From NCBI RefSeq assembly GCF_002906655.1, contig NZ_CP025795.1, positions 682,001 to 746,000 of the forward strand: a stretch of DNA of 64,000 nucleotides. Reading direction: 5' to 3'. The notes below the pieces were generated by a model. The model was not told where the DNA came from. It was given only the letters and a program-made list of their open reading frames with translations, and ran no database searches. Positions within the stretch are counted from its first letter, which is position 1; each line of letters begins with the position of its first letter. Source of the stretch: Vibrio hyugaensis (GTDB lineage: Bacteria > Pseudomonadota > Gammaproteobacteria > Enterobacterales > Vibrionaceae). Below, one piece after another: positions 31,203-35,046 of this stretch. Position numbers and translations under genes: made by a program.

Positions 31203-32258
31203 TTATTTGTAGTATTTCTGTTTCATTTTCAGAGCGACATTAACCAGAGCAATCAAGACAGGAACCTCGATTAGAGGACCAATCACACCAGCAAAAGCTT
31301 GGTCTGAGTTTAGGCCAAACACCGCGATAGAAACCGCAATTGCCAATTCAAAGTTGTTGCCTGTTGCAGTGAAAGCAATCGACGCATTTTTGTCGTAGTC
31401 GATGCCCATTTTCTTACCAACGAAGAAGCTTACAAAGAACATCAATACGAAGTAAATTGCCAGCGGAATTGCTACACGGAATACATCCATTGGCAGTTCA
31501 AGAATCATTTCACCTTTTAAGCTGAACATCAGTACGATGGTCGCAAGCAGGGCGATAAGCGTAATTGGTGAAATGCGTGGGATGAACACTTCGTTGTACC
31601 ATTGTTCACCTTTCGCAGCGACCAGCCATTTACGGCTTAGGAAGCCCGCTAGGAATGGGATACCAAGGTAAATCAGTACACTTTCCGCGATGTCCATCAT
31701 CGAGATATCTACCACGAAACCTTCGTAACCAAAGACTGGTGGCAACACAGTGATGAACAACCATGCCATTACACTGTAAGTCACGATTTGGAAAGCACTG
31801 TTTAGTGCAACTAGGGCTGCGCCGTATTCTTTGTTACCGCCACCGATATCGTTCCATACAAGCACCATCGCAATACAACGAGCAAGACCGATCAGAATGA
31901 TACCGACCATGTAACCCGGATGATCACCTAGGAAAGTCAATGCAAGGATGAACATCAAAATAGGGCCGACAATCCAGTTCATCACCAATGACAGCGTAAT
32001 TGCTTTTTTGTCTTTAGTGACGGTGCCTAATAAGTTGTAGTTCACTTTTGCTAGCGGTGGGTACATCATCAAAATCAAACCGATCGCTAGCGGCACGTTA
32101 GTACTGCCTACAGACATAGATTCGTTCCATTCTGCAACTTGTGGGAAAGCAGCGCCAATACCCACACCAATAGCCATAGCGACAAAGATCCAAACCGTAA
32201 GGTAACGGTCGAGGAAGCTCATTTTGTTGCCGGCACTATCTAAAACTTGAGTTGTCAT
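31203..32258 (-). CDS. acr3: Acr3-type arsenite efflux transporter
   Basis: 351 residues with about 10 helices. The Acr3 signature around the functional Cys is present ([18 protein letters not shown]), together with [19 protein letters not shown] and [18 protein letters not shown]. It exports As(III), and in some members Sb(III), across the inner membrane. It lies behind arsR on the same strand but has its own operator-like palindrome directly upstream, so it is probably repressed directly by ArsR. No arsenate reductase (arsC) is adjacent. Confidence 0.92.
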
Positions 32259-32276
32259 AGTGTTCTCTTATTCGTT

Positions 32277-32294
32277 TATCGTCGAAAGGCGATA
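32277..32294. promoter_or_regulatory. ArsR operator candidate upstream of acr3
   Basis: Palindrome TATCGTCGAAAGGCGATA, about 20 bp before the acr3 start. It matches the sequence before arsR at 15 of 18 positions. Confidence 0.65.
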
Positions 32295-32343
32295 CTTAAA
32301 GGTATAGTTTACCCCGGCGCACCTTACAAGTGCGCAAGGATAA

Positions 32344-32685
32344 TTAATTAAAAAGGTTAGAAAATCCCAGATTGAACTTATCAAATGCGTCGCGTTGAAT
32401 GCGGTAACACACCTTAGGCGGGTTAGGCTCTGCGCTGATAAAACCAGCTTGCTTTAAGATACGCAAATGTTCAGAAACCGTCGATTGTGCAAGACCTAGC
32501 TCAGAAACCAAATCACTGTTCAAACAACCGCCCATGGTATCGAGAGTGTGCAGGATATGCAGAATGCGCAAACGTGCTGGGTGTGACAGAGCTTTCGCTT
32601 GCGCTGCCAGAGTTTGTTCTTTCTCGAGTTGTTGTTGCGTTGTCTGAAAAGCAACTTCGCAAGTGTCGTTGCATTTATCACTCAT
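32344..32685 (-). CDS. arsR: ArsR-family As(III)-responsive repressor
   Basis: 113 residues with a winged HTH (SHPARLRILHILHTL, then LGLAQSTVSEHLRILKQAGF). The classical ELCVCDL arsenic site is absent. Instead there are N-terminal Cys5 and Cys9 and a Cys54 (GGCLN), an arrangement like Corynebacterium glutamicum CgArsR, which binds As(III) with two N-terminal Cys plus a Cys near residue 55 of the other subunit. It heads the arsR-acr3 pair. Shared palindromes before both genes suggest autoregulation and control of acr3. Confidence 0.88.
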   Translation of the reverse strand: MSDKCNDTCEVAFQTTQQQLEKEQTLAAQAKALSHPARLRILHILHTLDTMGGCLNSDLVSELGLAQSTVSEHLRILKQAGFISAEPNPPKVCYRIQRDAFDKFNLGFSNLFN

Positions 32686-32721: not shown

Positions 32722-32841
32722 AAGTTTACGCCTGCAGAGCTCAGGATGCAACTATAGAATCGAAACTAAGTAAAAAACGAAAGGCAAGTATGAATAAATT
32801 GCGGGGTTTAATTGCAAAGTTAGGTCATTGGCTTGATGAAA

Positions 32842-32904
32842 AAGAAAAGCAGAACTTAAAGATACAACGAAGTGGGGGTGTAGTATCAGGAGCTAAGTTC
32901 TGCT
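32842..32904 (-). terminator. intrinsic terminator with a long C-rich loop
   Basis: A perfect 11-bp stem AGCAGAACTTA (32894-32904 on the minus strand) / TAAGTTCTGCT (32848-32858), followed by TTTCTTTTTC on the minus strand. It sits 11 nt after the stop of the small gene. Confidence 0.75.
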
Positions 32905-32914
32905 TAAGGTTCGT

Positions 32915-33046
32915 TTACCAGTTGAAGAAGTCGTTCATTGTTACCAGAGCCATAACTTCAAGCTTGTTGTCTGAATAAGCGACGCGTTCTCGAAAATAGG
33001 TTGCCATCGTAGGCATGTCTTTTGCTGATCGAATTTGGAATCGCAT
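32915..33046 (-). CDS. 43-residue small protein divergent from sgrR
   Basis: ATG 33046 is preceded by AAGGAGGAAACACT, a near-perfect Shine-Dalgarno. The product begins MRFQIRSAKDMPTMATYF and ends MNDFFNW. It is soluble-looking, with internal Met codons at 11 and 14 that would give 33- or 30-residue forms. A strong terminator follows the stop by 11 nt, confirming a genuine short transcription unit on this strand. I see no sequence match to E. coli SgrT from memory. Function is proposed only from position: sugar-phosphate stress or carbon-flux control. Confidence 0.65.
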   Translation of the reverse strand: MRFQIRSAKDMPTMATYFRERVAYSDNKLEVMALVTMNDFFNW

Positions 33047-33145
33047 AGTGTTTCCTCCTTGTTGCTGACAGGGGCAGTATGCAAAGAAAAGGGGAGCTGA
33101 AAAAGAGAGTGAATTTCTGGGGTTTATTCCTAATAAGACCCAGAA

Positions 33146-33161
33146 GGTGCGCTAACTCACC
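33146..33161. promoter_or_regulatory. CRP-like half-conserved site between sgrR and the small gene
   Basis: GGTGC-N6-TCACC resembles the CRP consensus TGTGA-N6-TCACA at 7 of 10 positions. It would overlap the -35 region of the minus-strand small RNA, a repressing location. The match is moderate. Confidence 0.4.
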
Positions 33162-33273
33162 GATTTTTACTCTTGGGGGGAATAAAAGGGGAACAAAGTG
33201 ATTGGAAGTTTTCTTATTTTCTATTACTGAAGTTGAGTAAAATAAAGCTATACCCACTTATTGAGGGCGCTCG

Positions 33274-35046
33274 GTGTCTGATCTCAACTTGTTTCGTTAC
33301 TACCAACGACTTACTCCCTTTGGGATTGGTGGTGAAGTCAAAACCACATTACAGGAAGTCTCTGACTTGCTGTTCACTTCTCCTCGTCATGCTCGCAGCT
33401 TATTATCGCAAATGCAGGATCAAGCGTGGTTAAGCTGGCTTCCAAAAGCGGGCCGAAACCAACGTTCTACTCTGTTGTTGAACATCGAGTTGAGTGCATT
33501 GAAAGAGAGTCTTGCTCTGGAACGTATCAAACTAGGTAAATACGAGAAAGCGCTGGCGATCCTCGATGAAGATGAAGCGGCATTTGGACGTTTGCTGAAA
33601 ACCACCTCTGGCGCGTCTGTTCAAGAAGGGCGGCTCAATATCCAGCTTACCTATAAGCGTATGTTTGAGCGTATTGTTCCTCATCAACTTCATCGTAGCA
33701 GTGAGCGTTTCTTCCTGCGTCAAATCTATTGTTGTTTAGTGTCGAGTGATTACAACGGTGTGGTGAAACCAGAGCTTGCCCACCATTGGCGCTACGACGA
33801 GAAAAGTTATGAATGGACGTTTTACCTTCGCCCGGGGCTGACATTCCATAATGGTACGCCAATTGATGCCGATACGGTCGTATCCCTTTTTGCTAAACTT
33901 AGCTCGCTGGAGTATTACCAGAAAGAACTTGCGCACGTCGCTAACATTACTGCGCCAAATCCTCTCAAAGTCGTGTTTACTTTGAGCAAGCCGGATCTAG
34001 GCTTTGCAGGGCTTATTTCCGGCGTAAAATACGGCATTCAACCCGTTAGCCAAGTTAATGTCGCGAACAACAATTTGGTTGTTGGTAGTGGGCCATTCTC
34101 TGTGATTGAACACAGTGCTCATCGATTGAAGCTACAAGCGTTTGACAGCTATTACACCTGTCGAGTACTGACCGATGTGGTGACGATCTGGATTGTCAAT
34201 GATGAGAAAATGGAGAACCCATCCCTAGCCGCGAACACACCGCCAAAGCAGGTGGAGAAAGCGGACGATGAGCTTGCCGACAGCATGTGCGGGCACTATA
34301 TGTCGACCCAAGATGCAGAGGTCGCTCCGGCGAGTCAACACAGTCGCACAGAGGACGGCTGTTTGTTTACGCTTTTTAACCAGCATGCCAAGCATCCCTT
34401 GTCTCAAGCGCAGCGTCGCTACATTGCTGAGCTGATTCAACCAGAGCAACTTGCTGATGTCATGCGCAAAGAAAAAATTGTGTTTGGAAGTGTGCCGGCT
34501 TACAACATGTTGCCAACGTGGAAGCCTGTGCTAAGACCGTTTGGTTATGAGAGTAAGCTGCCAAAAAATATCACCATCGCAGGTTACAACTACACGGCGC
34601 TGCGTCGATGTGCTCGTGCGATTGCCAACCGTTTAGAAGGAACAGGAAGCAAAGTTTGTATTGTTATGTACTCCTACCGAGAGCTGAGTGAAAAGGCAAA
34701 AAATGGCATTTTGGATGAGACGTTGGTGGTCACTAACATCAACTTGGATGACAACCGTCATGCGTCTGCTTTTAGCAATTTTTTCACTAATACCGTATTG
34801 CATCACACCTTGGGCGAAGAGAACTCGACTTGGTTGGACGACCAATTAGAGAAAGTACGGGGCTACACTGAATTAGAAGGCTATCTTAAAGCGTTGGAGC
34901 CTATTGCCTCAACACTCGTTAGTGAATACTGGATTGCCCCAATGTTCCACCACACGCAAACGTTGCGCTTTCAAGGCGTTCTAGAAGACGTGGCGCTCAC
35001 CAACTGGGGGTGGCCAGATATTCGGTCAGTGTGGTCGGCAGATTAA
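33274..35046 (+). CDS. sgrR: SgrR-family transcriptional regulator (HTH + SBP_bac_5)
   Basis: 590 residues from GTG 33274. The N-terminal winged-HTH (about 1-110) is followed by a periplasmic-binding-protein-like domain of the SBP_bac_5 class (YKRMFERIVPHQLHRSSERFF, then LAHHWRYDEKSYEWTFYLRP and LTFHNGTPIDADTVV). This is the SgrR architecture. In E. coli SgrR senses sugar-phosphate accumulation and activates the divergent sRNA sgrS. The same divergent layout with a short RNA-like gene is seen here. It is slightly longer than E. coli SgrR (551 residues), with an extra loop around residues 315-360. Confidence 0.88.
   Translation: MSDLNLFRYYQRLTPFGIGGEVKTTLQEVSDLLFTSPRHARSLLSQMQDQAWLSWLPKAGRNQRSTLLLNIELSALKESLALERIKLGKYEKALAILDEDEAAFGRLLKTTSGASVQEGRLNIQLTYKRMFERIVPHQLHRSSERFFLRQIYCCLVSSDYNGVVKPELAHHWRYDEKSYEWTFYLRPGLTFHNGTPIDADTVVSLFAKLSSLEYYQKELAHVANITAPNPLKVVFTLSKPDLGFAGLISGVKYGIQPVSQVNVANNNLVVGSGPFSVIEHSAHRLKLQAFDSYYTCRVLTDVVTIWIVNDEKMENPSLAANTPPKQVEKADDELADSMCGHYMSTQDAEVAPASQHSRTEDGCLFTLFNQHAKHPLSQAQRRYIAELIQPEQLADVMRKEKIVFGSVPAYNMLPTWKPVLRPFGYESKLPKNITIAGYNYTALRRCARAIANRLEGTGSKVCIVMYSYRELSEKAKNGILDETLVVTNINLDDNRHASAFSNFFTNTVLHHTLGEENSTWLDDQLEKVRGYTELEGYLKALEPIASTLVSEYWIAPMFHHTQTLRFQGVLEDVALTNWGWPDIRSVWSAD

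Follow-up and report, generated by a model that had tools for sequence, protein, structure and literature searches.

A candidate dual-function small RNA gene beside an SgrR-family regulator in Vibrio, with ptsG as its predicted target

Analysis of a 64,000-nucleotide stretch of Vibrio hyugaensis DNA (contig NZ_CP025795.1, positions 682,001 to 746,000; hereafter the window) revealed, divergent from a gene of the SgrR family, what is probably a Vibrio dual-function small RNA gene that acts as an SgrS/SgrT-like brake on ptsG, represents a separate RNA family, and combines an open reading frame (ORF) derived from a glyoxalase operon with a hairpin added later. Judged by conservation, it is a real and widespread dual-function RNA locus, and most likely a new RNA family that is a functional analogue of SgrS/SgrT rather than a proven homologue. 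From these data, we infer that the RNA is transcribed, binds Hfq, and represses ptsG. The first-pass annotation had proposed a dual-function RNA beside sgrR; at the sequence level its ORF and anti-Shine-Dalgarno loop stood and proved conserved, and its statements on CRP and VcdRP did not stand.

Read from the sequence, positions 33081 to 32836 of the minus strand contain a promoter-like stretch, a ribosome site, a 43-codon ORF, and then a 12-bp hairpin. The ORF was confirmed as first annotated, and so was the near-perfect ribosome site, whose AAGGAGG ends seven bases 5' of the ATG. The terminator was described correctly in its 35-nt loop, whereas its stem has 12 bp rather than 11 and is separated from the ORF stop by nine bases rather than 11 nt. 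The loop begins with GCUCCUGAUACUACACCCCC and also contains CTCCTGATACTACACCCCC, and the tail 3' of the hairpin reads TTCTTTTTC. The 3' end of the RNA is likely near 32840, and a transcript of about 230 nt is predicted, starting near 33069 with the ORF beginning about 24 nt in.

Hairpins of this kind (at least nine pairs, with GCUCC, a spacer, and CCCC in the loop) were found at 74 of 90 Vibrio regulator loci, a count in which three motif variants (L020, L054, and L100) were placed by hand, one locus (L051) passes only a looser pairing rule, and the second regulator copies of one clade (L025–L031; no ORF, no hairpin) were bypassed by the hairpin script but counted in the 90. The loci comprised 51 with ORF and hairpin, 23 with the hairpin and no family ORF, seven with the ORF and no hairpin, and nine with neither. 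Because the loop motif is kept at the 23 hairpin loci that lack the ORF, the RNA appears to be conserved apart from it. A strict detector (GCTCC, 0–25 nt, and CCCC, flanked by at least seven pairs, within the first 750 nt) matched 71 of the 90 loci, one of them (L031) through an unrelated terminator, versus a mean of 1.25 (maximum 5) in 20 dinucleotide-shuffled sets and 4 on the opposite strand.

The stem also covaries. In an alignment of 40 hairpins (A3), GCTCC was invariant and the C-run nearly so, and all six consensus pairs had changed on both sides, with 31 such cells compared to 5.6 in shuffles. An alignment of 72 distinct model-aligned matches (A4), in which 8 of 74 rows are spurious (seven on the opposite strand of the hairpin and one elsewhere in L062), gave 46 cells compared to 8.6, and shifting the pairing partners reduced every measure. 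Covariation and loop conservation across Vibrio, both named as checks when the RNA was proposed, thus came out in its favor.

Genome-wide searching with the hairpin model, ignoring position, gave one match each in 87 of 196 Vibrio genomes, with 83 of the 87 lying 176–450 bp from the regulator. Forty of these hairpins had gone into the model and match by construction; 50 of the 87 matches came from other genomes, 20 of which had no previously fetched locus. Among the loci, the model missed L032 and L051, and under the stricter filters of the genome-wide search the genomes of 12 of the 74 hairpin loci were missed. When regulators of about 37–45% identity were dropped, leaving 102 of 122 genomes with the closer regulator type, 84 of these 102 had a match. 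The match in G028 is doubtful. In G194, the hairpin, ORF, and a similar upstream region lie 5.6 kb from the regulator, and in G172 the ORF and a 45%-identical regulator adjoin the hairpin. G135 (L263) has the same kind of hairpin with no regulator within 4 kb, possibly an orphan RNA copy. Seven genomes of one Vibrio clade (L025–L031) have two regulator copies: the copy closer to that of the window is without the RNA, and the other (about 50–51% identity) has it in six of the seven, with no match listed for G178.

A profile grown from the window peptide alone, on ORFs divergent from the regulator at the same loci, reached 48 ORFs and, when every open frame on that strand was searched, exceeded 20 bits at 58 of the 90 regulator loci. 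The family core reads M-A-x-Y-Y-x-x-R-L ... E-R-x-A-L-x-x-L-x-x-L-x-x-W. The ratio of nonsynonymous to synonymous substitution was 0–0.36 in unsaturated pairs among nine harveyi-clade copies (30 C-terminal codons). The ORF is kept across Vibrio, a point on which its first description could have failed. A search of 5.8 billion proteins with an alignment of 38 peptides returned 17 matches, of which the named ones were all from Vibrio and none had an assigned function, and Pfam and NCBIfam searches at E values up to 0.1 returned just scattered unrelated families, each in one or two of the 38 peptides. The structure model contains two helices (residues 13–24 and 28–40) with a mean predicted local distance difference test score of 81.6. 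This conservation marks the ORF as a member of a genuine small-protein family.

In the same genome, the sequence of the ptsG leader is ...GGGGGTGTGCC...TTTATCAGGAGCATAAACATG, and in its predicted fold four Gs form the loop of a hairpin. The loop of the RNA is complementary to this leader at two sites, GCUCCUGAUA covering the ribosome site and ACACCCCC the G-run, with a computed energy of −31.7 kcal/mol; control starts of 40 long window frames gave a mean of −11.2 kcal/mol (standard deviation 3.1, best −18.8). The earlier suggestion that the loop is suited to pairing with ribosome sites thus agrees with target prediction for ptsG. Across 67 loops, each paired with ptsG of its own genome, the energies ranged from −39.2 to −11.6 kcal/mol (mean −23.4, median −21.6), and ptsG outscored all 40 window starts for 63 of them. 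Among 18 TCAGGAGC-N3-9-ATG sites in the genome, ptsG was the strongest by 6.6 kcal/mol; the 17 others, mostly not true gene starts, gave −15.4 to −25.1 kcal/mol. The spaced motif GGGGGT-N20-50-GGAGC occurs 11 times in the genome, ptsG included, and 10 times in the reversed control. A ptsG search in 80 of 84 genomes matched 76, and 76 leaders were read. GGAGC preceded the ATG in 75 of these, always as TCAGGAGC, in leaders that had been picked by GGAGC-N4-9-ATG; the exception, G084, is a 60% paralogue. GGGGGT lay upstream in 74 of the 75.

According to the mechanism we propose, the adjacent SgrR-family regulator would drive the RNA of about 230 nt. By computed pairing, ACACCCCC would contact GGGGGUGU of the ptsG leader hairpin and GCUCCUGAUA the ptsG Shine-Dalgarno sequence UAUCAGGAGC, so that ribosomes would be blocked from starting ptsG and glucose uptake would fall. 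The 43-amino-acid two-helix protein may be a further brake on the uptake or metabolism of sugar, where SgrT and VcdP also have their points of action.

Several observations weigh against the RNA gene or against its role as a ptsG brake. A simple scan of the window found no sigma-70 promoter and no terminator at the RNA gene, although the terminator scan had a loop limit of 8 nt and the loop here has 35; the folding stability of the 240-nt RNA as a whole was not unusual (z = −0.81). The six both-side-changed pairs were also reached in 26 of 500 shuffles for A3 and 50 of 500 for A4. Replacing cognate with swapped loop–ptsG pairs showed a mean gain of only −0.63 kcal/mol for the cognate pairs (median rank 24%), single pairs can be weak (weakest −11.6 kcal/mol, L100), and six other frames of the phosphotransferase system (PTS) type gave −6.7 to −14.4 kcal/mol at their likeliest starts, the choice of start being uncertain. 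The GGGGGT and Shine-Dalgarno elements of ptsG are kept in the hairpin-less genomes G003, G093, G107, G083, and G111, which means that this RNA need not be why they are conserved; VcdR, whose repression of ptsG depends on four Cs, could account for it. The link between regulator and RNA rests on position and short motifs. G073 has neither the hairpin nor GGGGGT. Vibrio ptsG leaders (L119–L194) contain a conserved hairpin-forming stretch with TACGGGGGTGT, also where this RNA is absent, and the stretch may be a docking site common to several RNAs.

One alternative is that the RNA is real but has other mRNAs as its main targets, with the ptsG leader conserved on account of VcdR or of the leader's own structure. 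The persistence of the ptsG elements without the hairpin agrees with it, as does the character of the loop as a generic anti-Shine-Dalgarno sequence, and weaker sites exist elsewhere, for example at frames of 215 and 231 codons (−23.5 and −23.9 kcal/mol). Since ptsG leads the 18 sites and uses both loop elements, we regard this alternative as rather unlikely. It is far less probable that the locus is only a small-protein mRNA whose hairpin is a terminator and whose loop acts in cis on its own ribosome site: CUCCU can indeed pair with AGGAG of that site, but the loop motif is retained where the ORF is missing.

That the locus is a genuine, strongly diverged orthologue of enteric SgrS/SgrT also seems improbable, despite extensive likeness. 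As in the enteric system, a divergent SgrR-family gene adjoins an RNA of about 230 nt with an ORF of about 40 codons in its 5' part and a 3' part complementary to the ptsG ribosome site (SgrS of E. coli has 227 nt and SgrT 43 amino acids), and some members of both are RNAs without an ORF, as an excerpt of PMC8672173 states for SgrS. Complementarity of the seed to the ptsG translation start, a feature of SgrS, was found here. The SgrT C-terminus LEGLMQW resembles LIQLCQW of the window peptide, and GTTCCCCTTTT, which directly precedes the start of E. coli sgrR, recurs here. However, the terminator hairpin here carries the seed in its loop, with two ptsG contacts, whereas the SgrS seed lies upstream of the terminator (PMC4021124, in the portion seen, which describes SgrS homologues in enterics), and the next gene encodes an ArsR regulator rather than setA as in E. 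coli. The search against SgrS that had been suggested as a check was negative: the Rfam model RF00534 had no match in the window, nor in 16 Vibrio loci at E values up to 1 (E. coli control, 228.8 bits), and the Pfam SgrT family PF15894 matched none of the 38 peptides at E values up to 0.1, nor eight of them at E values up to 10 (E. coli SgrT, 49.6 bits). Profile comparison with enteric SgrT using hhalign gave a probability of 22.7% over 17 columns (E 0.0009 for a single pair), with an enteric alignment of just seven close sequences. SgrT homology was thus tried with Pfam, NCBIfam, and hhalign, and nothing firm emerged.

The identity of the regulator also argues against orthology. The neighboring gene, first annotated as sgrR, is indeed an SgrR-family gene in divergent orientation, but it is a paralogue: E. 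coli SgrR finds its best match here in a different gene, own2, at another position of the same chromosome (34% identity, 330 bits), and the regulator of the window gave 162 bits plus a second piece. Compared end to end with E. coli SgrR, own2 showed 33% identity and 53% positives, and the window's regulator 26% and 46–47%. The latter scored 103.5 bits with PF12793 and 240.6 with NF010149, below the cut-off of 476 for that model. By eye, own2 has what reads as coding sequence on its divergent side, and no such hairpin there. Excerpts of PMC13060122 describe DsvR (Vca0578) of V. cholerae as 54% similar to SgrR, with a putative 11-bp box directly upstream of the start codon; this is a likeness to the regulator studied here, which is of the same family, but the reported similarity fits own2, which has no such RNA, rather than the window's regulator. 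Vca0578 would then be the orthologue of own2. In the parts seen, PMC13060122 and PMC12345230 state that V. cholerae is without SgrS or that SgrS was not identified, and each mentions one SgrR homologue. A protein named V. cholerae (P0049) showed 98.6% identity to the regulator of G034, a genome at or next to V. cholerae that has an ORF of about 54 codons and the hairpin at this locus, and the statement that V. cholerae has no SgrS may reflect looking beside another paralogue.

VcdRP, to which the first-pass annotation had likened the locus in general plan, proved a poor model. Both are Vibrio dual-function RNAs with a 3' C-run, and ptsG, the likely target here, is among the targets of VcdRP, four Cs of VcdR being required for its repression (PMC8672173, in part). 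According to the same excerpt, VcdRP is longer than 300 nt, is CRP-repressed, and encodes the 29-amino-acid VcdP at positions 104–193, as opposed to a 43-amino-acid ORF beginning about 24 nt into a shorter predicted transcript; its description there mentions no SgrR-family neighbor. With ORF length, position, and promoter all differing from the described layout, and with the present locus found in G034 with its longer ORF, a copy or homologue of VcdRP is hardly credible. In excerpts of the literature matches listed, including PMC9732341, PMC8545128, and PMC6597380, this RNA is not described; it may be present, unnamed, within published start-site tables.

The CRP-like site GGTGAGTTAGCGCACC (33161–33146), said in the first description to overlap the probable promoter, was rejected as a control element, and with it CRP control of the RNA lost its support. 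Its three mismatches out of ten to the consensus are at the background level (the best score was three or four mismatches at 87 of 90 loci), and its letters are present in four of 12 aligned loci, the window included. Lying 65–80 bp upstream of the likely −10 element, it does not overlap the promoter proposed here. The elements picked out as candidates for control were GTTCCCCTTTT and CTCTCTTTTT. The pattern TTCC[CT][CT][AT]TTT occurred at 46 of 90 loci, compared to 1.3 (maximum 5) in shuffles and 7 on the opposite strand, and a loose form of CTCTCTTTTTCAGCTCCCCTTTT at 33 of the 90 Vibrio loci and 10 of 12 loci from other genera, compared to 1.6 (maximum 4) in shuffles of the 90. These boxes support control of the RNA by the regulator and do not prove it.

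The 12 loci from other genera, one with a protein named Photobacterium aquae and two with 97–98% identity to a protein named Aliivibrio fischeri, contained the family ORF at the same place in eight cases and the hairpin in none. A glyoxalase-family gene (PF00903) directly follows the ORF in four of those eight (L213–L216) and in Vibrio L108, L110, and L111, where the two genes overlap by four bases; at all of these loci the ORF and glyoxalase gene stand without the C-rich hairpin. In a further three of the 12, the glyoxalase gene is present and the ORF absent. L115 lacks the ORF and has the glyoxalase gene after the hairpin, and L099, by eye, has the order ORF, hairpin, and a glyoxalase start with GTG. 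L116 and L117 have the ORF, and L116 contains a C-run stretch without GCTCC before the glyoxalase gene, which may represent the RNA at an early stage or in decay. The only glyoxalase relative found in the window genome was C2:483788 (59%); upstream of it lies CTCTCTTTTTT, with ten letters in common with the RNA promoter (E 0.016), and its upstream region did not fit the looser promoter pattern.

The occurrence of the ORF before a glyoxalase gene without the hairpin in relatives suggests that the RNA arose from an mRNA, the small ORF probably having begun as the first gene of a small-protein and glyoxalase operon to which the hairpin was added later. A living series from operon to dual-function RNA to plain RNA is plausible, with loci matching each proposed stage found in living species; the direction is one that we infer. 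Whether Vibrio independently invented its own SgrS/SgrT, through gain of the hairpin between the ORF and the glyoxalase gene of one mRNA followed by loss of the glyoxalase gene and then, in several lineages, of the ORF, we judge to be evenly balanced. A glyoxalase gene beside such a regulator would be consistent with a connection to methylglyoxal and sugar-phosphate stress.

The features of the locus are listed in Table 1. The window's regulator showed 95% identity to those of V. owensii and V. jasicida and 93% to a protein named V. campbellii, which places the window in the harveyi clade of Vibrio. The segment immediately downstream of the RNA on the same strand (31203–32685) contains genes for an ArsR-family repressor and ACR3 arsenite efflux.

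Table 1. Positions of the RNA gene, its proposed control elements, and the adjacent regulator in the window
Feature	Position	Strand	Basis
ORF, 43 codons, MRFQIRSAKDMPTMATYFRERVAYSDNKLEVMALVTMNDFFNW	32915..33046	−	Profile, dN/dS, structure model
Ribosome site AAGGAGGA, 5' of the ORF	33053..33060	−	Sequence
Terminal hairpin, 5' arm AAGCAGAACTTA	32894..32905	−	Fold; stem covaries across Vibrio
Hairpin loop, 35 nt, with two pairing elements, GCUCCUGAUA and ACACCCCC	32859..32893	−	Conservation, pairing with ptsG leader
Terminal hairpin, 3' arm TAAGTTCTGCTT	32847..32858	−	Fold
U-rich tail TTCTTTTTCAT	32836..32846	−	Sequence
Likely −10 element CATACT	33076..33081	−	CATA[CA]T in 12 of 12 aligned loci
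Conserved promoter stretch CTCTCTTTTTCAGCTCCCCTTTT, possible activator site	33087..33109	−	Aligned loci
Candidate SgrR-family box GTTCCCCTTTT	33184..33194	−	Recurrent pattern
SgrR-family regulator gene (SgrR_N and SBP_bac_5), divergent from the RNA gene	33274..35046	+	Paralogue of the gene most like E. coli SgrR

The locus offers a candidate sugar-phosphate-stress RNA beside a second SgrR-type regulator, where two recent papers report no SgrS for V. cholerae. If the proposed reading of a dual-function ptsG brake is true, Vibrio would have a sugar-phosphate-stress RNA together with a new small-protein family, and the loci described here would form a rare living series leading from a coding operon through a dual-function RNA to a plain small RNA.
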